A stretch of DNA of 64,000 nt from Dactylonectria macrodidyma (Eukaryota > Ascomycota > Sordariomycetes > Hypocreales > Nectriaceae). The stretch spans positions 558,001 through 622,000 of the forward strand of contig JAGMUV010000030.1 in the NCBI GenBank assembly GCA_020744425.1. The letters are read 5' to 3'. The translations under genes were made by a program, and so were the position numbers. Every line of letters starts with the position of its first letter. Position 1 is the stretch's first letter. The notes under the pieces were generated by a model. The model did no database searches. It had not been told where the DNA came from and saw only the letters and a program-made list of their open reading frames with translations. Below, in pieces: positions 5,382 through 51,421 of this stretch.

Positions 5382-8017
5382 CAGAACCGACCCTCAATCC
5401 CTGGGTCTCAGATAAAGCGAACACCGCTTACTAGTTATCAGTGATCTTCCAAACACCCATTATGCCCTTGAGATGGATTTCAGTACCGAGAGGTACCATG
5501 CCTTTCCCGTTGCACACATCATATTCTGCAGTGCATCGCTTTTCTCCGGTTTCGTTGGTCTCATAAACCGAAACAAAGCAACAACGCCATTCCAGTGTCT
5601 GATTGGCACCCTCAACCGCTGCTGGGGTTTTTCTAGCACCTTCGCTGAAGATTGTGGCCTTGTTCGGCGGCTCCAGGGTGAATTTCTAAGGAGGGCGTTA
5701 CCGACTATCTCGTCAGGCTTGCAGGTATAAACGGACCATCAGGATCTATTTGCCACCTAATTGACGGTAGCTCGCTATCGGGACGGAGTTCGAAAAGGTG
5801 GAATTCCAATCGGCTGCAACTTGTTGCCCTGATATTCGTCGCAAAGGAGAAGAAGCTTCTCTGAGGATCTGGGTTTCTGTTGAACAAAGACGCGTCAACT
5901 TGTTACCCTAGTACGGGTAGAGCGGAGGGGGGATTCAACAGGGCTTGCAGGGCTCTGCACATTGGCGGAGGACGTGCCGCAGGAACTAGGTGATCGATTG
6001 GTTGATCGACATTCAAACCAGAAGATGATAGAATTTAGGCATTGCAGTTATGTGTAACGGTTATGCTTATCCTTATTACCACTCGCCTCCTAACAGCAAC
6101 CGCATCCTCGGATTAATATGACAGGATTCGGGGTAAGCTGACTGGCATCATGCCGATCCATTTAACAGTTGATAGATGTGACAGAAACTATCTTCTTCCG
6201 GTGTGAACTTGGCTTTCGCACCTTCGCCGCGATGCACTCGCCCGGTCGAGCCTGCAAATGTTTGGCGGCGCCTGTCATGAATAGCATCGCCCGCGTTGTC
6301 TTGCTTCGAGTACATGCTCATTACTTCGGTCTCTCTTAGTCACTCTGGTATTCTTACCGCCTGCCATTGTAAAGGCGTAGAGAAAAGGTCGGCAAAGTAA
6401 AGCTCATATTCCGGTCTGGTATAGGATATATATAGCAAGCCATCTCTGTGTTCACCATTTTGTGTATTCAGGAAGCTGCTTTCTGAAATTTGACCCTTAT
6501 CAAGTTATTGCTATCAAAAATCTTGCCTGAGAAACCACTGAGGCGGCTCTAAGCCAGGTGGCCCGGCCTCTCTACTGGCCCGTGACTCAATTTGGAGATG
6601 CGGTGGTTCAACTCCACGGACTAAATGCTGAGTAAGCTGTCAACGCAACGCCACGTGAAGGCGAAATTGATGGAATTGAATTGATCGCCAGCCTGTGTGA
6701 GCTCAATGGGACTAGGATAAAATTATGTTCCATCAAGATTCAGATCTCGTTTCATTCCCTGAAATTAAAAACCTGGTCATACTTCATTCCATGAAATAAG
6801 AATCTAGTCCATCTCGTTCTACGAAATTAGAATCCGGCCCAATCCTGGTTCCAAGCCCGGGATGGGAAGAGACCAGGACGGGAAATCATGCTCTCGCGGT
6901 CAGCCTAGCAGCCTCGACTGATAAAAAGCAGCCCTGCTCTGAAACAAAAACGCAGAGACGTGATCGTCAGTTCGGGGTGTATATACCTACCTCCTATGGT
7001 TACGCACCGATCTTGGTCTCCGTAATTACCAGGGCCGCTTTAATCAGTCATGTGCGTGACGTTGAGGGGTATAGCAAAAACCCAGTGTTGGAAGCAACCA
7101 ATCTCACTATTCAGCTGCTCGGCTGCAACTGCTGGTATGCTGGAGATAACCAGCCGGGATTGCCAATCTCTTCAGTATAGACCTAAAGCCCGTTTTTGGT
7201 GAAAAGGGGGCCATGTTAAATGTATGGCGTTCTCCCTGGCTCTAAGAGATAGAATCCAATTGCATCAATTATCTCGCACTCTCCATACTAAGAATCTGCA
7301 GTTTCCGACTATAGAAGGTGTAAGACCTACCTGGTATATATAATCTCATGACCTTCCAACACCCAAAGCACTCCACACTATATGCGGAAAATTCTCCCGT
7401 GATTTTTCAGCGAAAGGAACTATTTCACTTTTGGATCTCACAATAGTCAGGATTTGGTTTTGCAACCTTGGAATTGGGATCTCATGGATTCTTAACGACA
7501 GATAAAGATTGCCTTGTAACATTATCAAAATATCCAAATCGTCATCGAATCAAATCATGCCAAGCGACTGTGTTTTCAAATTGTCCTAAATTGATTGTCA
7601 ACTTTTGAGTTTGCTTGCCCGTGGAAGGAATACAGCCCCTTTTGCTGCATATATAATCCATTACTGTCCCACCTGTAGAGCGAATTCTGCAGAGGAAAAA
7701 AATGAATGATAAAAATTCGCTCCAAAATCTCACTCAACTTCTCAGCTTGCTTGCGTGTAGAATGAGCGACAGCTTCTCACAGCATGTAGGAGATGATCAA
7801 CTTGGTATGCGACCAGGAGGCGGATACCGCTCAAGAAGGAAGAAAATGAAAATCCACCCTGAAATGTCATCCACTATACCAAAATTGTCATGAATGCCCC
7901 AAATTTCCTCACCACAATACCTGTAGCTTCATCTGCATATTTCCCAGGGGGACACTACATTATAACATCTCAACTAGTCAGCTTTACAGCGAACAGAGCA
8001 TGAAGGTTCCATCCCTT
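5382..8017. other. Long gene-poor stretch
   Basis: No reading frame here has motif support. Short ATG ORFs at 5473-5730 and 7702-7893 are open but featureless and lack coding-like codon bias. The region is AT-richer toward 6.7-7.9 kb and holds the downstream flank of the Cys-repeat gene. Confidence 0.5.
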
Positions 8018-9635
8018 TTACTGTGCTCTGGGCCACTTGCATTGGCCATGCTGACAAGTTTTAGGAGCCACGCACTGTAGCTAGTCAGCTCTATAATATC
8101 TAAAAATAGGAATTTCACTTACTGTTTCACAATTTCTTCCACAAGTGTTAGATGGACACTTGCATTGGCCGTGCTGACAAGTTTTTGGAGCCACGCACTG
8201 TAGCTAGTCAGTTCTATAATATCTATAAAACAGGAATTTCACTTACTGTTTCACAATTTCTTCCACAAGTGTTAGATGGACACTTGCATTGGCCGTGCTG
8301 ACAAGTTTTAGGAGCCACGCACTGTAGCTAGTCAGCTCTATAATATCTAGAAATAGGAATTTCACTTACTGTTTCACAATTTCTTCCACAAGTGTTAGAT
8401 GGACACTTGCATTGGCCGTGCTGACAAGTTTTAGGAGCCACGCACTGTAGCTAGTCAGTTCTATAATATCTATAAAACAGGAATTTCACTTACTGTTTCA
8501 CAATTTCTTCCACAAGTGTTAGATGGACACTTGCATTGGCCATGCTGACAAGTTTTTGGAGCCACGCACTGTAGCTAGTCAGCTCTATAATATCTAAAAA
8601 TAGGAATTTCACTTACTGTTTCACAATTTCTTCCACAAGTGTTAGATGGACACTTGCATTGACCGTGCTGACAAGTTTTTGGAGCCACGCACTGTAGCTA
8701 GTCAGTTCTATAATATCTATAAAACAGGAATTTCACTTACTGTTTCACAATTTCTTCCACAGGTGTTAGATGGACACTTGCATTGGCCGTGCTGACAAGT
8801 TTTAGGAGCCACGCACTGTAGCTAGTCAGCTCTATAATATCTAGAAATAGGAATTTCACTTACTGTTTCACAATTTCTTCCACAAGTGTTAGATGGACAC
8901 TTGCATTGGCCATGCTGACAAGTTTTAGGAGCCACGCACTGTAGCTAGTCAGCTCTATAATATCTAGAAATAGGAATTTCACTTACTGTTTCACAATTTC
9001 TTCCACAAGTGTTAGATGGACACTTGCATTGGCCGTGCTGACAAGTTTTAGGAGCCACGCACTGTAGCTAGTCAGCTCTATAATATCTATAAAACAGGAA
9101 TTTCACTTACTGTTTCACAATTTCTTCCACAAGTGTTAGATGGACATTGACATGAACCACTCTGACAAGTTTTAGGAGCCACGCACTGTAGCTAGTCAGC
9201 TCTATAATCTATAGGACAGAAGGATTTTACTTACTGTTAAGCATCGAGGTCCGCAATTACCGCCACCAGACGGGCACACACACTCGTGATTTCGACAAAA
9301 CTTGGGAGATTCGCACTGTTATTTCTCCCGTACAGTGGTTAGCTTTACAGATTGTGGAGCACAAAATCATGTTTTATGAAGAACACACGCACCAGTGGAC
9401 AGCAACACTGAAAGCCATTATGTGCTGCAGCTGAAGCACATTGTCCAACATTCCTCCAACACGGCGAAAAACGGTCTTGGCACCAGTGTGCACAGTCACT
9501 GTTGCCTCCTCCCTGTGGAATGGCCCAGGTAGTGACAACTGCCGCATCCATTAGCGAGAACTACAGAACGCCACGTTAAGAGCGCCTCCGAAACTCACTA
9601 AGAAGGAGCCAACTCAGCAAGAGGAGTCTAGCCAT
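8018..9635 (-). CDS. Secreted cysteine-rich repeat protein encoded by a tandem exon array (13 exons)
   Basis: I assembled exons 9635-9599, 9538-9393, 9315-9235, nine exons of exactly 75 nt (the first 9185-9111, the last 8197-8123), and a final exon 8074-8018 ending in TAA. They total 996 nt, 331 residues. The N-terminus (MARLLLLSWLLL, then IVTTWA) is a signal peptide, followed by a Cys-rich head that ends in CCCP. Exon 3 and every 75-nt exon encode one unit with spacing C-x5-C-x4-C-x-C-x4-C-x3-C-x2; exon 3 has x6 in the fifth gap. From exon 5 on the units are identical at protein level (CVAPKTC, then QHGQCKC, then PSNTCGRNC), differing only at synonymous sites. Introns are 48-49 nt, GTAAGT to CTACAG with branch CTGAC, all phase 0. 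The last unit breaks off after CK. The family is not recognised. A disulphide-rich extracellular or wall role is inference. Confidence 0.85.
8041..9185 (-). repeat. 123/124-bp tandem repeat = one exon plus one intron per unit
   Basis: About 9.5 copies, with unit landmarks at 8041, 8164, 8288, 8411, 8535, 8658, 8782, 8905 and 9028, then a diverged copy near 9150. Each unit is a 75-nt exon plus a 48- or 49-nt intron. Intron types alternate (AAATAGG versus AAACAGG core), suggesting higher-order two- or four-unit duplications. Introns are as conserved as exons, which points to recent unequal exchange. Confidence 0.95.
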
Positions 9636-9689
9636 TGCAAGCCGCTTTAGTACACACACTCGGGTCTTTTTGGTGAATAGTTAGGTATG

Positions 9690-9810
9690 AGGTGCAGAGA
9701 AGCAGAGAAGAAGATAAGCAGAGGAGAAGATAAGAAGAGGAGAAGAGTAGAGGAGAAGATAAGTAAAGGAAAAACAAGCTAGTTGCTGAGAGACAACACT
9801 ATACTTTTTA
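9690..9810 (-). promoter_or_regulatory. Pyrimidine-rich upstream tract of the Cys-repeat gene
   Basis: On the gene's strand, 9776-9692 is an almost pure C/T tract built from loosely repeated 17-18-bp units, lying 60-140 bp upstream of the ATG. A TATA-like AATAAAAAGTATAG precedes it. Polypyrimidine tracts just upstream of start sites are common in strongly expressed genes of filamentous fungi; activity here is inference. Confidence 0.45.
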
Positions 9811-9948
9811 TTCCCCAGGGGGATGGAATTCCTCAAACCAATACGTAATGCCAGCCAGCCACCTCAATTTAACCAAGTTACTAAGATGCTCGAGGTTGTG
9901 GGTCACCCCCTCTACAGTCGGGGAAGGCCGAGATGGAAAATACGAGAG

Positions 9949-10042
9949 TACCGTAAGTTTAATTTCTTGCTGCCTAATTGGTCACTGAGTCGTCAAAATC
10001 CTATTCTGACTAATTAGAGAGCCAGGAATTAAACTTACGGTA
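9949..10042. mobile_element. Small TA-bounded inverted-repeat element (MITE or pogo end)
   Basis: A 94-bp segment with perfect 16-bp terminal inverted repeats (TACCGTAAGTTTAATT) flanked by TA on both sides, as expected for Tc1/mariner-pogo insertions. It sits 100 bp upstream of a pogo-like transposase start, so it could be either a nested MITE or the structured left end of that element. Confidence 0.65.
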
Positions 10043-10141
10043 ACGTCATTCACAAGTGAGTGAGACAGACAAGCGAGTGAGACACGTCATCACAGAAACA
10101 CATCTCCGCACTTCAAACTCTCCCCTTCCTACAACATCGCA

Positions 10142-10525
10142 ATGCCCACACCAATTAACGAAAGTAATATGATTCTAGCCCTCCAAGCTATAGGAGAAGA
10201 CCCATCTTTAAGTTCAAGAGGCGCTGCTAAAATCTACAACATTAGTCATACAACGCTCTCTCGTCGCAAGAATGGAATAGCCTTATGACACAATACTATG
10301 CCAAATTCACATAAACTTACGGATTCCGAGGAATCAGCTATTATACAGTATATTCTCGACCTAGATGCACGATACTTTCCTCCCTGGCTTATTGATGTGG
10401 AAGCAATGGCCAATCGACTGCTAGTAGAGCGCGACATGCCTCCAGCCGGTAAGTACTGGGCTTTAAACTTCGCCAGGCGGCAACCAGAGCTTAAAATACG
10501 AATCTTTCGGAGATATGACTACTAG
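10142..10525 (+). pseudogene. pogo/Fot1-type transposase, N-terminal HTH domains, with nonsense codons
   Basis: From the ATG at 10142 the frame encodes a psq-type helix-turn-helix (SLSSRGAAKIYNISHTTLSRR) and then a CENP-B/Tc5-type HTH domain (SEESAIIQYILDLDARYFPP, then MANRLL and PAGKYWALNF). In-frame stops occur at 10286 (TGA) and 10523 (TAG), each explained by one C-to-T change, as left by RIP. Downstream similarity fades by about 10.6 kb and no DDE catalytic domain follows, so the element is a dead 5' remnant. Confidence 0.8.
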
Positions 10526-11166
10526 AGGGCCCAATGCGATGGTCTAGAGTCTGGCGAACTCAATTATGGCCAAGGTATCCAGCCAGCCTCGCAAACTAAA
10601 CGTGGTGGACACCTCCGGCTCGAACTGGTGGGATAATGGAGATGGTTGTTGCCAATCAAAGTGTCTCAGAATGAACTCGGACACAGGTGGGTTCCACATG
10701 AATCTCGATCCAAGCACTTATGTAGGTGGAAAAAAGTTTGGAACATATCAAATACCGCTGCAGCTACTCAGGGCCAGAGCATCCGACTGCGACGGAGTGG
10801 TGCCATTCCACGATTCAGCTCCTCGGATACGAAGCGAGGTCTAGATGTTCAAATGTCATAATGATAACTCTTCGTGACTTGCGGCCAGTTACTAGCGTGG
10901 ATCCAGAGACGGTTGAACAGTCCGGACAAAATGCGACTGGCAACCAAAATACTCTGCTTTCTTGCCATACGATCCAGCGCCTGTCTTCGCTAATTCCAAA
11001 TCCATAGCGGGAGAAAGAAATGGCTGGAGTAGGACTTCCACTAAAGGTAGATGGGCTCTGAACAGGGATAGCTCCGACCTCAGTAAGGAGGCGTGAACTG
11101 ACGGGTTCAAATTCAAGATGACGGGACGCAGCTGCGACGATGCTAAACATACGGACCTTGACGGCG

Positions 11167-11198
<32 letters not shown>

Positions 11199-12769
11199 TA
11201 GGACTAGACCACCCGGAAGAAGCTGGCTAACCAGGGCTTCCAATTGATGCCGTTCCGCGGACATTGCGATCCAGGCCAAGGCCTCCCACCTGGATCCTTA
11301 CATAGTACAAGCCTTTGCGCGACCCAAACCGTCCAGCAGTTGATTCCGACCCTCCAAGTCTGGCCTCTGGGCTTTTACCTGGCCAATCTACCTCACGCGG
11401 CGTCCAAAACAATGACGACACCATATAATAAGAGCTGTGAGAAGCGGAAGTCGCACTACCTCTTCACATGTTCCCCGCATGCGGGGCGTCGGAGGCGGAA
11501 CTCGGCGGGAGGTCGGGATATATACCGGTACTAGAAACTCAGATAAGTCCTGTAGCGGCAGCTGACTAGATTTGTATAGTTTAGCTATTGAGGGAATGGA
11601 TTTAGCCCGTCGCTTTCTAGCATCGCATGCTCGTATTTCTCTCTCGCCACCTAAACTTAAAATGCCGTCCAGCGCATATGAGCTGGTGAATGCAAGATCT
11701 TCGGCGAGGAGCCCCTTGGACGGCTCCGCCATAAAGATGGGACCTGCTGTGATTTAATCGTAGAAGCAGCATCCACAAGGTGCACCAGCGAGATTTCGTA
11801 GCTATTCTCCGTACCTTGGTGTTGAGTTCCAGCCCTGCCAGCCCAGACATTCGGGAATGGTACCACCCCCTGCAGATCGAAGGCCAATATACCGACGCCT
11901 CTTTGTCATGATCCGTTCACCATCACGTCAACCACCAGCTCCTAACGCTGAGCAGCGCCTCGAAGGGCTTCCCAATGATGTCTAGTATGTCTCATTCCAC
12001 GGCGCAGATATTCGTTCAGCGCCAGATCTCTTTTCATTCTCATAGTCTAAATACCAAGAAATCACATGTTAGTACCAAATGGACATTTTTTCAAGTGGTG
12101 GGAAACACCAGTTCGTGACGGAACATCGTGTGAAGTATAATAAGGAATATGGTGGGAAGGACATGTTCAGCATGTGAACAAAAGATTTGTTCATAGAGAT
12201 GATCTTTGGAAAGTGTGGTATGATTATGATGATCATATCAGGGTCTCGATCTTTCTGAGAAGGTTATCGGGATCCGCTAATTTCACATGCACCTGGGAGC
12301 AGACTGCTTGGAGACAAATACAAGGACATTGCGGCTGCAAGCCAGCTGAAGACATCTCAAGGCAGCTTCCAGTGAGCAAATAATGCGACCATTCCCAGGT
12401 GCTAATGTCTCTGCATCTGGACAGGACGACTTAGGTAGCAAGGCTGCAAATTGTGGTCCCACCGCGGGAGTTGTCTTGCGACATGCGTCTTTACTCGAAC
12501 AAAGCGGGAAGCTACACAGCTGAGTGACGTACAACACAACTCAGGAATGAATTGATTATCTCCGTAACTTTCTCGGCCGCCGGCTCGCGCGTAGCCTTTA
12601 CAGAATATTACTTTTTGCCATCGATCCAGCTCTGTACTCGATCTATTTTTATTACACATGGCTAGTGCTGGTGCAAATCTTGATTTTCTTGTTGTAGACC
12701 CGAAAGACTCCAAGCTCGCTAGCACTCACTGACAGACGCCGCAGCCGTCCTGTGCACTACAATACTTAA
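10526..12769. other. Degraded region without a supported gene
   Basis: Contains a run of 30 A (11167-11196). Minus-strand frames between 11887 and 11388 show faint resemblance to the middle region of Zn2Cys6 regulators, but stops and frame changes are frequent and no zinc cluster is present. No intact gene was found. Confidence 0.4.
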
Positions 12770-16649: not shown

Positions 16650-19600
16650 CAAGGCTCGAACCCACTACACTGTAAATCCACGTGGACCACATATAAGTGG
16701 CCCATCTCTATTACATCCACTTGTCGGCGCTCAGATTACGTAATAATCCACTACACTTGGACACGAAAGTGGATGTAATGGAGTGGATTTAGGTGGATTT
16801 AGGTACAGTAGGATATTCCCTGACCCTGTATGGTTCATAGTACTTATTTTTGTATATGACTGCCCATTAAATCGAGGTACCTGGACCCAAGTTAGCCGAG
16901 GTCGATCACCCCTACAGCTAATCTAATAATATTGACGAGAAACTACCCCTATTGAGTGCGTTTTCTACAGATTTCCTGCTTTGTTTTTGCCAAAAAAAAA
17001 AATTGATGTCAGCCAACCAGCCAGGCCAACCAGGCCAACAGCAGCAGCTCGAAGACCGTCTTTTTCGCCATTTCAGAGGCTGGAATTGGTCAGAACGCGC
17101 TCGTGATACTAGCTCTTGGCTGTGGGACTTTGGCTATGATATTCAACGTCATGGCTTACGCAAATGGGCTTGCAAGGACTGTATCCTCAGAAATCGTCCC
17201 ATTATCGCGAGTTTTACCTCTTCAGGTCTCCAGAACGCGGCAAATCATCTATGGCGTGAGCACAAAACACCAGCACCAGAGGGAGAGAAAAAGAGCACAG
17301 CACAGCTCAAATCCGAAGGCGCACTGAAATCGAACCAGCCGACTATTGCCTCTGTTTTGAAACTGGACGTCAACAAGCCTACGGAACAGAATATCGCGAA
17401 TAGCTTCATCTCACGCTTTGATAAGCAACATTTTCAGCGTATGCTAGTCGAGTTAATCGTCAGTAGCAACCAGTCATTTTCCTTCGCCGAGAACCCCATC
17501 CTCCGAGAAATCTTCGACTATTTGAGTCCCTCCGTTTCCATCCAACACGCCAACTTGACTGCCACGGCTGTCCGATATAAGATCATTCAAGAGTATAACC
17601 GCCACAAGCAGACGGTTATCGAGGTGCTGAGGAACTCCCCTGGAGCCCTTCATATTTCATTTGATGGCTGGACGTCTCGAAATAAGCTTGCCCTCTACGG
17701 TATTGCTTGTTTTTTCAGAGACGAGAAGAATCGGCCATGCAAAATCATGATTGGAGTTCCAGAGGCTCATCGTCACTTCGGCTCAACGATCGGTGGGGAG
17801 GTTCTCGACGTCCTACACACTCTTGGCGTGGGTCCAGAGAAGGTTGGCTATTTCACGCTTGACAATGCAGAAAATAACGATACTGCTATGGAGGTCATTG
17901 GTGCTGAACTTGGGTTCGATGGCCGACTGCGCCGAGGACGCTGTATTGGCCACACAATTAACTTGTCAGCCAAGGCGCTCTTATTTGGCAAAAACGCCGA
18001 CGCGTTCGAGAAGCAATTGTCAGACGCAGAAGCGTTATCTGATACTGAATACGCTCAATGGCGCAAAAAAGGACCAGTTGGCAAGTTACACAATATCGTA
18101 GTTGATGTGCGTATTAGCCGCCGGCTGATTTACTTGTTCAAGGAGGTCCAGAGGGTAAGCGGTTTAACTAAATCCTATTCGTCTCATATTAACTCGGTAT
18201 ATCTAACAGGACGAAATTAATCGCGCCACCACCCTTAAACTCCGATCGAAGAAACCACTCAAGCTAATTATCGACAACGACACGCGTTGGCTGTCACAAC
18301 TCTACATGATCCGCAGGGCTCTACGGTTGAAAACCTCTATCGAACTCCTACTGATCAAGTATAAGGCGCAATGGGAGGACGAAAATCGGTCTAAAAAGAC
18401 TGGCCAAGTGACACAAGCCAAGTTGGCGAAAAAACCACGCATCCTCCGAGACGAGAATCAGCTAACGGACAAAGACTGGGAGGTTCTTTACCATTTGGAG
18501 GCTATTCTGACTGTTTTTGAGACCGTGGTAAAGACGCTTGAGGGTGATGGACACATCCGCAGGCGTAAGCAAGGCTGGACCGGCTCCTATGGCAATATCT
18601 GGGACGTGGTGCTTGGCTATGAGTTGCTGCTTAACACACTGGAAGAATATAAGCAGCTTGCTGCTAACTTTCCTGATCCAGAGCACTTCCGCATCGGAAT
18701 CAACCTTGCTTGGGATAAGCTGGATGAATATTATCGGCGGCTGGACGAGACGCCCATCTACTATACGGCTATGGCGCTCCATCCAGCTTATCGTTGGGAC
18801 TGGTTTGATGAAACGTGGGCTCATAAGCCTAGCTGGGTTGAAAAGGCAAAAGAGATGGTTGCCGACGTCTGGCTGTCCGATTACGCTCGTCTCGAGGTTA
18901 GAACCAGCAGCAGCAGAGGCGACGACGAGCCACCAGCAAAAAGACCTCGGTTTTTCAATCCCTTCGAGAAGAACAGTCGTCTGCCAAGCTCAATACCAGC
19001 CTACGCAGCAGCTATTGTGGGTGACGAGTACCAAGCGTGGCGGACGGATCGTGACGCCAGCGACGGCAACGTTCGTGATCCAATTGGTTACTGGATCACT
19101 AAGCAAGGCAGATATCCTCGGTTATCCAGGATGGCCTTGGACTTCCTGACGATCCAGCCGATGTCAGCCGAGTGTGAGAGGTTATTTTCAGCTGCTGGCA
19201 AGATGGTCTCGGGGTTGCGTACGAACCTAGATGCTGAGATTATCGCCATTTGTCAGGTCTTACGCTCTTGGTACCGTGCTGGCCTTATCAAGGACCTGGA
19301 TCCATTGCTTAAGCCACACCTCGAAAGTAAGCTGGATGCCGGCTGTGGGACTCTAAGCGACGACGAGCTGGCTCTTGCTGAGTCAAAATGGCTATTCGAG
19401 GGCGAGGACAGCGCCAGCGAGGTTGACGATTCATCACAGCAGCACGAGGCTGAAGAGTTAGTGTCAACCTCTGAAAGTGAGGCTGAATAGGCGTCGACGA
19501 GGTTGTGAATAGCCTCAAAAGTCCACTTACAAAAATCCACTTATAAATCCACGTGTACATCCATTCCACTCCGGTCGAAAGTGTGCTACATCCGCTTTGT

Positions 19601-19671
19601 AATTGCCTAAAAATGGTCCATCCACTCTACTTGGTCCAAAAGTGGAGTGGATGTAGTGGTTTCGAGCCTTG
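16650..19671 (+). mobile_element. hAT transposon, apparently full length (3.0 kb)
   Basis: Both ends carry a 20-bp terminal inverted repeat with one mismatch (left CAAGGCTCGAACCCACTACA; right, reversed, CAAGGCTCGAAACCACTACA), fitting the YARNG start of hAT ends. Both subterminal regions are dense in short GTGGAT/ATCCAC motifs, candidate transposase binding sites. Inside lies one intact two-exon transposase gene. The expected 8-bp target duplication is not seen (left TCGATGCC, right CCTGTACA), so at least one flank has been rearranged. Confidence 0.93.
17006..19490 (+). CDS. hAT-family transposase
   Basis: Exons 17006-18154 and 18210-19490, joined in phase 0 over a 55-nt intron (GTAAGC to TAACAG), give 809 residues. 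I start at the ATG at 17006 because the frame upstream of it has no ATG. The order is: a Cys/His region (WACKDCI, then NHLWREH) resembling a BED-type zinc finger at about 55-90; the first catalytic Asp in HISFDGW; the second in FTLDNAENND; RCIGHTINLSAKALLFG; and the C-terminal dimerisation region with the catalytic Glu in SAECERLFSAAG and a Ser/Glu/Asp-rich tail. All three DDE residues and the frame are intact, so the protein could be active. It cuts and pastes hAT ends and could act in trans on the truncated copy. Confidence 0.93.
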
Positions 19672-20207
19672 CCTGTACACCAGAACTGATGCCTCTGGTG
19701 GCTGGTTGAGGTGTTCCGACAACGCCACTTACGTTGTGATGATAAGGGGTCTTGAGATTGTCGTTGAATGTTACCCTTCGAACCCCGCGCGGTATCCCAC
19801 AGCGATCAAGGTCGGTGGCGCATAAGGTTTTCGAAGCGGTCATCAGCAGCGGCCAGAAGCACCCATGGAGTAATCCAAGGAGCGCTTCTCGTAAACTGCA
19901 AGAGAAGCAGCCAACTGCTCATCCCGGCTGGTTATTTGATAGATGGTCGGGACGGTCACCGGCGGTCGCGTGCTCCACCTATTTGTTCAAGCTCTCAACA
20001 AGATCGTAAGCCAGGGCACCCGGAGATGGGCTCGCGCAGAATGTAACAGGAAAACAGCCGTCAATCCCTGCTCTCAACTCATAATATAGGCTAGTCATGA
20101 CTGATCATAGTGACCATCGTGCTTACACTTTCCTATATAAAGGTTAAACTCCGTCCCCTTAGGACACCTGTACTTCTGCTTATAGCTGTCTCAAATTATT
20201 TGGCCTT
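19672..20207. other. Intergenic stretch
   Basis: No supported gene. It borders the palindrome on the right. Short ORFs at 19752-20046 lack motifs. Confidence 0.4.
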
Positions 20208-41684: not shown

Positions 41685-43036
41685 TTAATATTTTCGCGGT
41701 ATTTTGACTTCACGCCCTGCGCGTGTGCGTACCACAGCTAACTCTTCCTCCCCCGAATTTGACCTCTCATCATCTTCCATCCCTCCTACCTCAATCACAT
41801 CCTCAACAGCATCCGCCCCTTCAATTGCTTCGTTTGCCTCGGAAATAGTGTCACCAGCCACTAGAGCCTCCGCCAATGTCATGAACCTTTTGTTGGGATT
41901 CGGTATCGCCTTCCTCTTCTTGCCTCTGCTCAACCGCCCAACTTCCTCCTCCAGACTGGCTATTCTGGTGCTCAGAGAGGCGATCTTTGACTCTTGAGCT
42001 TCAAACCCTCTCGATATCACAGAATAGCGCCTTCTTGTTGACGGGCTCTTGTTCTTCCCCAGATCTCGGATGTGGCGGCTGGTCTTTGGCGTATTATCAG
42101 AGTCGACTTGCCCGTCTCTGTGGCCGTCCGACCCGGGCGTCGTTTCCCTCTTGTCCGGCTGAATCTCAGGATGTATGAGAGCTTTCCGCCGTGAAATCGG
42201 CCAGTTTCCAGTCACCCTCCAGCCTGAGAGTATATTTTTCTTCGTCATACCCACTTCCCTGGCTTTGGCATAGGCCTTGATGAAGTTGACCTTGTCCACC
42301 GGCGCAGAATCGGTCAGGCAGGTCAGTTTCTGCAGTTCCTTTCGGTAGGCAGCCTTGGATACATTGAAGACGCCATTATCCAGCGGCTGCAGCCCATGAG
42401 AGCAGTGTGCAGGCAGGTAACAGCAATATATGTTGTTCAAAAAGCACGTAGCCATCCACTCATCCTGGATTTTTAGTCAGCGCCGCCAGTGGTATTTCCG
42501 ATCTAGAACAGGTAGATACTCACAGATACATGGCTCCCATGGCCATCTAATATGATGAGCCTTGCATCAGACTCATCCGCCGGTTGCGTTTGAGGCAGAT
42601 AGACCTCCTTGAGCCACTCGACTGCGATATGGTTGTCCGTCCAGCCATTGTCGGACGTGATATAATACCAGTCGGCGACCCCCCGGAGCTCATCGATAAA
42701 CCACTGTTGCTGAAGCTCTTTACCTTTGAAGATGATCCCCGGCTTCAGAAGACGGCCATCTGCGGTGACGGCTTCGATAAAGGTAGTCCAAGTGCGGGAC
42801 TGCGAGCCCTTGAGGAAGGCCTTCCTCCTAGGATCGCTACTGCCAATGACCAAGGAATCCAAGCCTATTTTTTCAGTGGATTAGTGAGTTTCGTAGCAAA
42901 AATGATCAATGCTCACCAAATCCAGCCATGATACCGCCCTCGTCAACATTAACCGTGTTCTCCGGTTTGATCCAGCCATATTCGCTCTCCCGGATGTCAA
43001 AGTACCAATTGACGGCCATTGGGGTAAACGAATTGA
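41685..43036 (-). pseudogene. pogo/Fot1-type DDE transposase, N-terminally truncated, with two introns
   Basis: Coding blocks 43036-42917, 42863/4-42524 and 42464-41685 join in frame over introns 42916-42865 (GTGAGC) and 42523-42465 (GTGAGT). The catalytic Asps lie in ENTVNVDEGGIMAG, in ARLIILDGHGSHVS and in LPAHCSHGLQPLD. The C-terminus (SGWRVTGNWPISRRKALIHP, basic coiled coil, ending REVKIPRKY) is intact. The HTH domains are missing because the inverted duplication abuts at 43037. The DDE core looks undamaged, but without DNA-binding domains the protein is unlikely to transpose. Confidence 0.85.
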
Positions 43037-50537: not shown

Positions 50538-51421
50538 CGAGAATGTGCTTAGCTACTTGGACGAAATTCGATTGACAGTCGGCCAGCCTCCAATCCCGTC
50601 GAGGACATCCAAATCGAGCGCGGCGAGCGTAAGGGAAGCAGGTAGGGAAGAGCGGTTTAAGGAACTAAAAGCTCTTCAACTTGAGACAGCAGAAGCGGAA
50701 TAGTCTTGCTGTGCAGCTCTGTATTTGGTCATCTTGTATTTGGTCATCTTGTATTTAGTCTGTCGTTTCTGCAACATAGGCAACCACACTCTTTTAGAAA
50801 ACAACAGTTCTTCATTTTTGTTAAATACTTGTTTTCCACGTAGTGTGATGGTGCCAACGGGCACCTGTTAATGATGTTCGGGCTCACGAAGGCGAAGTCA
50901 TCACAACAGCACCAGAAGGCCATTAAGATGCTTGGTCTTCAAAGCCCACCTGTCTCTCTGGGGGGTGGCGATGGGGCATTCACCAGGGCCACGATTTGAC
51001 ACCTTTTGTTTTGACCTACGAACGGCAGAAGCTGCATGTTTTATTCCCTGCTTTTCCTCATTTTTGTTGACTTTTGCTCTATTTTGGTGGTCTCAACACC
51101 ACGGTTTTGTTCAAATTCGAAGGCACAACCCTTCGGAATAGCTTCAGCTTTGAGAGATGTCATTGGTCAGAGAACCCATAGAAACCTGACCAATGAGGGG
51201 GTGTGTTGGAATGAGGATGGAAATGAGGCAAGGATCACGATCATCGTGAACAAGTTCACGATGAGAGTGAACGACCACAACTAGTATCAGGCAGCAGCCT
51301 GCTGCCTATGATATTGGCAGATTGGACATAGGTATAAGAGACCGACCTTCGTCACTCTCTTAGAAGAAGTAGCTCAATTCAATGTCTTCTGGCCACATCC
51401 TATGTTGCACCCCCTAGACTC
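50538..51421. other. Intergenic stretch, possible solo LTR
   Basis: Three 15-bp copies of a TTGTATTTGGTCATC-type motif lie at about 50716-50760. 51203-51409 begins TGTTGGAATG, has a TATAAGAG box and ends TGTTGCA, a layout like a copia solo LTR, but no target duplication was found. ATGTCATTGGTCA and TGACCAATGA near 51160-51190 form a short hairpin. Confidence 0.35.

Follow-up and report, generated by a model that had tools for sequence, protein, structure and literature searches.

In Coccidioides, the gene encoding SOWgp (spherule outer wall glycoprotein) carries repeated exons that, together with their associated introns, are nearly identical and undergo concerted evolution by unequal crossing-over. 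According to the part of PMC2576457 that deals with it, the gene is single-copy and polymorphic in repeat number; the account is credited there to Johannesson et al. 2005 (Genetics 171:109). The same part of that source describes the SmPoMuc genes for polymorphic mucins of Schistosoma mansoni, in which exon 2 and its flanking introns are tandemly repeated, up to about 20 times: different loci carry different types of exon 2 (r1 or r2), and recombination is the source of diversity (PMC2576457).

Tandem modules that are nearly identical recur in progranulin (in Aplysia, 11 of 13 are identical), and the excerpted account states that its authors detected granulin-related genes in no fungus (PMC4527844). 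BAD-1 of Blastomyces contains 41 tandem repeats, each short and constrained by disulfides, and strains differ in how many they carry, as given in part of PMC3708853; introns go unmentioned in the main text of that paper. The SP7-like effectors of arbuscular mycorrhizal fungi have 6-11 repeat units, variable in number and with the last one truncated (PMC11333574, in part). The bicycle genes of aphids, which are putative effectors, contain many small exons of the same phase, and tandem duplications within the gene account for the growth of one large candidate relative (passages of PMC9168663). Background on adhesins is provided by part of PMC8654403.

Here we describe a gene of the fungus Dactylonectria macrodidyma. 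The original prediction, made from the letters of the DNA, stated that no described fungal family with this layout was known to it; that claim falls, given the description of SOWgp in the relevant part of PMC2576457. A search of open-licence PMC full texts returned no description of the gene itself or of its module.

Structure of the gene

The window is the whole 64,000-nucleotide stretch of DNA that was analysed. On its minus strand, from 9635 to 8018, a spliced model of 13 exons gives an open 996-nt coding sequence of 331 amino acids, which starts with an ATG at 9635 and closes with a TAA stop ending at 8018. No open reading frame of 250 or more codons overlaps it. The model opens with a predicted signal peptide, followed by a Cys-rich exon 2 that is unique, by ten six-cysteine exons and by a truncated last unit. 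The features are as follows; exons 2 to 12 are given as in the spliced model.

9696-9770, minus strand: pyrimidine-rich tract 5' of the gene; also present, and longer, at the C32 paralog
9599-9635, minus strand: exon 1, 37 nt, start codon and hydrophobic part of the predicted signal peptide
9539-9598, minus strand: intron 1, 60 nt, phase 1, acceptor GCGGCAG
9393-9538, minus strand: exon 2, 146 nt, unique Cys-rich N-terminal domain
9316-9392, minus strand: intron 2, 77 nt, phase 0, identical in the C32 paralog
9235-9315, minus strand: exon 3, 81 nt, founder-type six-cysteine unit
9186-9234, minus strand: intron 3, 49 nt, phase 0, with 0 differences to the array intron of the C32 paralog
9111-9185, minus strand: exon 4, 75 nt, divergent edge unit (also from unit comparison)
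8987-9061, minus strand: exon 5, 75-nt unit
8864-8938, minus strand: exon 6, 75-nt unit
8741-8815, minus strand: exon 7, 75-nt unit
8617-8691, minus strand: exon 8, 75-nt unit
8494-8568, minus strand: exon 9, 75-nt unit
8370-8444, minus strand: exon 10, 75-nt unit
8247-8321, minus strand: exon 11, 75-nt unit
8123-8197, minus strand: exon 12, 75-nt unit
8018-8074, minus strand: exon 13, truncated unit (three cysteines) and stop codon, with the same end in the C32 paralog
8034-9208, minus strand: exon-intron units in tandem, repeating every 123-124 nt (Tandem Repeats Finder)

The pyrimidine-rich tract is probably the core promoter region. As had been proposed, ten consecutive exons (exons 3-12) encode one cysteine framework, C-x5-C-x4-C-x-C-x4(or 6)-C-x3-C, and nine of them are 75 nt long; the tenth is exon 3, at 81 nt, in which the fourth loop is longer than in the other units. 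The array introns are 48 or 49 nt long and run from GTAAGT to CTACAG. Short introns with GCTGAC-type branch sites, WD40-repeat sequence and an Adp1-like transporter (see below) suggest a filamentous ascomycete. Two further details of the original prediction held in part. Introns 2-12 are all in phase 0 as stated, but intron 1 is in phase 1. The introns, said to be nearly as conserved as the exons, do keep to 48-49 nt, but across exons 5-12 they are somewhat more variable in sequence (pairwise diversity 0.0195 in exons versus 0.033 in introns).

Tandem Repeats Finder recovered the array with a period of 123, 9.5 copies and a score of 2131; given this score, and given two loci with different periods (see below), chance and assembly noise were rejected as its source.

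Other elements were recorded in the window. A hAT-type transposon lies at 16650-19673 (Dimer_Tnp_hAT, E 1.5e-15), with near-identical copies at 1143-2226 and at L009 4796-7001. At 774-1142 there are about three near-identical 126-nt units that appear by eye to be WD40 repeats, which we take to be of NWD/HET-E type; this WD40 gene may be broken, because the units end where the partial hAT copy (1143-2226) begins. On the minus strand, an open reading frame at 23984-24877 matches Nramp metal transporters (E 3.8e-44, covering only model positions 160-350 of 357), and another at 41685-42455 has a DDE_1 transposase match (E 7.9e-12).

Paralog and segmental duplication

Searches of the genome itself with protein and DNA queries, covering 77.3 Mb in 77 contigs, gave the C24 and C32 genes only among the best candidates scored; with exon 2 as the query, no match beyond the window and C32 loci was found among the best candidates scored. 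An exact search of the 77.3-Mb assembly for a 24-nt unit core returned 10 occurrences in the window array, 8 in the C32 array and 0 elsewhere (the reversed pattern, used as a control, gave 0 matches). A fragment on C8 was rejected as a paralog: its match is confined to sequence downstream of the gene (window 7475-6809).

The C32 paralog (L009 2682-4095) has 11 exons and encodes 294 amino acids. It has the exon 1-3 layout, the splice sites and the C-terminus of the window gene, with an exon 1 that is 3 nt shorter. For intron 1 the acceptor GCGGCAG is favoured, since the paralog reads TTG in place of the more upstream TAG that would be the alternative. The arrays differ in both number and type of unit: seven 81-nt units with 49-nt introns and a period of 130 on C32, versus nine 75-nt units in the window.

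The two genes lie within a segmental duplication:

7364-12710, minus strand: segment duplicated at C32, a colinear match except for 9927-11337

The interval C32:468526-472294 is colinear with window 12710-7364, minus a window-only stretch of 1,411 nt (9927-11337, minus strand), which lies 0.3 kb upstream of the window gene and is missing from C32. The duplication extends past window 9926, because the C32 match to 11338-12710 is both colinear and low-copy. Within the window-only stretch, approximately 10152-10539 has at least 38 further matches in the genome at ∼68-75% identity (40 of 76 candidates scored), and this repeated part is probably a transposon. A self-inverted repeat occupies 9949-10042. 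A divergent locus on C15 (71%) matches two parts of the window, 11805-11562 followed by 11337-11221, without a change of order. Because this match keeps its order across part of the junction, it hints that the stretch was lost at C32 rather than gained in the window.

At its 3' boundary the C32 copy ends at the start of a hAT-type element; the hAT copy at L009 4796-7001 follows the paralog's stop codon at a distance of 0.7 kb. Past this element, the next 18 kb read show no return of homology to the window, and no convincing target-site repeat was seen at the 3' end of the copy. Across 33 kb around C32, outside the duplicated segment, the window matches only the hAT element and a 144-bp stretch at 51227-51369.

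Just past the paralog's stop codon, L009 4096-4200 holds a candidate decayed unit with a donor site, in a stretch from which the window locus lacks 49 nt. Its local alignment, in register with the 3' end of the exon and the donor, has a score of 28, which was reached by 9 of 1000 letter shuffles with exon 5 as the reference and by 16 of 1000 with exon 4; against the paralog's own unit the figure was 45 of 1000. A decayed further unit at this position is thus suggestive, and statistically weak.

Change within the arrays

The array unit of the C32 paralog is a mosaic: its 5' half resembles the window unit, and its 3' half, along with the intron that follows, is identical to the paralog's own exon 3 and intron 3. 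At 36 informative sites the C32 unit was set against window unit 5 and the paralog's exon 3. Of the sites within nt 1-45, 15 are window-like, two are exon-3-like and three are neither; in the last 36 nt, none is window-like and 16 are exon-3-like (Fisher P = 1.5e-7, with a split point picked after viewing the alignment). The breakpoint coincides with the fourth Cys/Pro codons and is placed between nt 42 and 45. The C32 array intron shows 0 differences to intron 3 and nine to a window array intron. That the unit is a mosaic points to a recombination inside an exon that actually happened and gave rise to it. In-frame recombination within the exon between an exon 4-type and an exon 3-type unit, followed by amplification, would account for the C32 array; gene conversion may have contributed to array change.

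Changes of a second kind are visible in the window. Units 6, 7 and 8 differ from units 10, 11 and 12 by 1, 1 and 1 nucleotides, respectively, and unit 5 differs from unit 10 by 0, the pattern that duplication of a block of several units would leave. The most diverged unit is exon 4, the first of the array, with 9-11 differences to each other unit. Over their first 40 nt, array units show a mean of 3.4 differences between loci, versus 1.2 and 0.5 within loci. Growth by duplication of whole exon-intron units with in-phase unequal exchange, as originally predicted, is supported by the mosaic array on C32 and by the signs of block duplication in the window. The original prediction further saw in the layout a possible mechanism for length polymorphism and, through exon skipping, for isoforms.

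The flanks of the paralogs differ at only 4 of 286 positions upstream and 22 of 640 downstream. This low divergence suggests that the content of the arrays changed recently.

Evidence for and against coding constraint

Within exons 5-12 all four variable sites are synonymous third positions. With an expected synonymous fraction of 0.20-0.27, this has a P of about 0.003 (0.0017-0.0052, depending on the assumed transition bias), and the reading frame of the window array looks constrained as a result. Diversity in these exons is 0.059 at third positions and 0 at first and second positions; in introns it is 0.033. No stop or frameshift occurs in the 13 + 11 exons of the two gene models. Exon lengths differ by multiples of three (34 or 37, 75 or 81), whereas array introns differ by a single nucleotide (48 or 49), and retention of any of the 12 introns would bring in an in-frame stop (12 of 12).

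Other parts of the genes do not follow this pattern. All seven substitutions between the paralogs in exons 2-3 are nonsynonymous, changing six residues (chance ∼0.14 under neutrality); on the sequence at hand, seven are too few for a claim of diversifying selection. Exon divergence is not lower than that of introns or flanks (7/261 in exons versus 2/186 in introns, P 0.32; flanks as above), so exons 1-3 bear no sign of purifying selection. In the C32 array one of two variable exon sites is synonymous, and several amino-acid changes separate exon 4 from the other window units.

These observations bear on the possibility that the array is a duplicated minisatellite in decay. A gene that formerly coded would have been copied along with its surroundings and would now evolve neutrally, its open frame a relic of recent amplification. 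Exons 1-3 diverging as fast as non-coding DNA, with every change nonsynonymous, is what such a history would leave; both loci have copies of transposons nearby, and no homologous protein was found in a set of 5.8 billion (see below). We nonetheless consider it unlikely, in view of the wholly synonymous variation in exons 5-12, the uninterrupted frame of both gene models and the restriction of multiples-of-three indels to exons.

Properties of the predicted protein

Hydropathy profiles of the window and C32 proteins contain one strong N-terminal hydrophobic segment and none later. The Kyte-Doolittle peak of this leader, encoded by exon 1 and the start of exon 2, covers residues 5-19, and, with no second peak, it lends support to the signal peptide of the original prediction. 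Both proteins are ∼20% cysteine; in both, dibasic sites (KR, RR, KK, RK) number 0, and N-glycosylation sequons and a C-terminal hydrophobic segment are absent. The complete array units (exons 4-12) have no F, W or Y and contain CxC and CxxC spacings.

No relative of the 331-aa protein was recognised in a set of 5.8 billion proteins. The full window protein drew 14 candidates and no match (E limit 0.001), and its first 113 residues two candidates and no match (E limit 10); for the C32 protein, none of the 7996 top candidates that were scored was a match (E limit 10). Such searches depend on exact words in common and lose power with a repetitive, Cys-rich composition; similar genes in other genomes may be un-annotated. 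Neither full-length protein matched a Pfam family at E ≤ 1, and residues 1-163 of the window protein matched no PDB chain by sequence at E ≤ 10. Matches to pieces of the C32 protein were rejected: a weak one to an NCBIfam model (E 3.4, with 7.6 bits where the cut-off is 100 bits) and those to Pfam TCR (E 0.79 and 1.3). An AlphaFold2 prediction of one unit, a step that the original prediction had proposed, yielded a low-confidence model with one short hairpin (pLDDT 65.8, pTM 0.27), which matched no solved PDB structure.

One resemblance is to EGF-like modules. A four-unit piece of the array scores 22.4 bits (E 1.3e-4) with Pfam EGF_laminin (PF00053), above the cut-off of 21 bits and in 4 stretches; the same piece scores 9.9 bits with EB and 9.5 bits with EGF_Tenascin, both below their cut-offs. 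None of nine Cys-keeping shuffles reaches the cut-off of any family. Counted for this purpose, the unit has the spacing C-x5-C-x4-C-x-C-x8-C, which we take to be that of the last five cysteines of tenascin-type EGF modules. The gene could then encode an authentic EGF-like protein (superfamily of laminin/tenascin type), one that had entered this fungus or persisted in it. Yet both full-length proteins go without a Pfam match, pieces of the C32 array have no EGF match at E ≤ 10, an extra cysteine interrupts the last loop, and the low-confidence model of a single unit resembles no solved structure. The level of noise is also high: among the Cys-keeping shuffles, EGF_2 gave 16.3 bits with one, and a family unrelated to it gave 16.9 bits (E 0.0045) with another. 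We regard true membership as slightly less likely again than a neutral minisatellite, and the EGF-likeness of the unit as a lead.

Elsewhere in the genome EGF_laminin has three matches, all below the cut-off, and Tandem Repeats Finder found no arrays comparable to the window's around them. Two of the three lie at L040 2700-4400, as an EGF-like extracellular segment in an apparent ABC transporter gene, presumably a fungal transporter of the Adp1 type.

Six cysteines in a module of peptide size would also suit a precursor that is cut into many small Cys-stabilised peptides, either in the manner of progranulin, whose modules are releasable by proteolysis according to part of PMC4527844, or by Kex2 as in fungal repeat precursors. 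The sequence of the chain makes this distinctly improbable: just two residues separate the last cysteine of one unit from the first of the next, and the two proteins have no dibasic site. Repeat precursors processed by Kex2 carry dibasic sites between their repeats. Taken with the lack of a C-terminal hydrophobic segment, the absence of dibasic sites makes an intact soluble chain likelier than either a peptide precursor or a GPI- or membrane-anchored protein. Very unlikely, finally, is a secreted metal-binding chain of metallothionein type in place of a disulfide-bonded rod: the cysteine content, the CxC and CxxC spacings and the lack of aromatic residues in exons 4-12 would fit, but metallothioneins are cytosolic, Cys-rich proteins not known to have a signal peptide, the probable signal peptide here leads into an oxidising compartment, and both the six-cysteine spacing and the Gly/Pro positions that exon 3 has in common with the array units resemble those of a fold.

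Discussion

Building on the open gene model, the paralog, the mosaic unit and the constraint on the array frame, we consider it probable that the window gene is expressed and encodes a secreted, disulfide-rich modular protein, its array shaped by unequal recombination and its product an intact extracellular rod. The gene would be transcribed and spliced, and its product would start with a signal peptide and a unique N-terminal domain rich in Cys. Six-cysteine modules of 25 to 27 residues would follow in a chain, each encoded by a phase-0 exon of its own. Near-identical exon-intron units would recombine unequally, so that copies are gained in blocks, lost and homogenised; recombination within an exon could create a new type of module that goes on to fill an array, as in the C32 paralog. 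Once secreted and folded through its disulfides, the intact multivalent rod would most likely act outside the cell, at the fungal surface or directed towards a host or competitor, as a surface or effector-type protein. The grounds for an extracellular role are the signal peptide and the cysteines.

A bolder reading, which we put forward tentatively and think doubtful as it stands, is that the two genes belong to a module-switching family in which promoter, N-terminal domain and C-terminus are shared and each locus bears, wholesale, an array of a different six-cysteine module. One of the modules would have been made by recombination within an exon at the fourth Cys codon, and both the number of units and the type of module would turn over within a few percent of neutral divergence. 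Surface or effector diversity might then arise much as in SOWgp and SmPoMuc, from what would be a new fungal disulfide module, possibly EGF-like.

The exon-intron repeat layout and the mechanism are of known kinds; the novelty lies in the six-cysteine module, in its lack of recognised relatives and in the paralog's mosaic array. Of the proteins with cysteine modules or variable repeats, progranulin is described as a secreted chain of Cys modules from repeated exons, but its 12-Cys module is split over N and C exons, and the window units have six cysteines each and no CC within them. BAD-1 is a fungal surface protein with a secretion signal, as predicted for the window protein, and with tandem Cys repeats; the described features of its own are two cysteines per repeat, a WxxWxxW motif and a C-terminal EGF-like anchor, and the complete units of the window gene have no Trp. 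The SP7-like effectors are secreted, as the window protein probably is, and resemble it in having variable repeats with a truncated last repeat; they differ, as described, in hydrophilic repeats, in a conserved intron before the first repeat and in the signature Y[KR]Rx[AP]x[AP] at repeat ends (the window protein has no Tyr). Nor is the spacing between repeats of the Kex2 type, with 0 dibasic sites in both proteins. The bicycle genes are those of an insect, with phase-2 exons and, in the description given, fast-diverging sequences in place of near-identical units.

SmPoMuc shares with the window/C32 pair its exon-intron repeats and unit types that differ by locus; it is unlike the window gene in being an animal mucin from a multi-gene family, with a 27-bp exon in repeats of about 1 kb, as far as its description goes. 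SOWgp, likened by the description of its layout, is a fungal extracellular protein, as the window protein probably is, and its gene has near-identical exon-intron repeats. Such units in tandem, a feature of SOWgp-type repeat genes, are what the window gene contains, and the mosaic array on C32 and the block duplication match concerted evolution with unequal crossing-over. SOWgp is reported as single-copy, whereas the window gene has its C32 paralog. The repeats of SOWgp are rich in Pro and Asp and are not known to be six-cysteine modules.

Together, the window/C32 pair offers a clean natural record of a modular protein growing by the copying of exon-intron units, with a sister gene that bears the mark of a within-exon recombination and the subsequent spread of a new module; with its six-cysteine module, which has no recognised relatives, the pair adds a further fungal case beside SOWgp.
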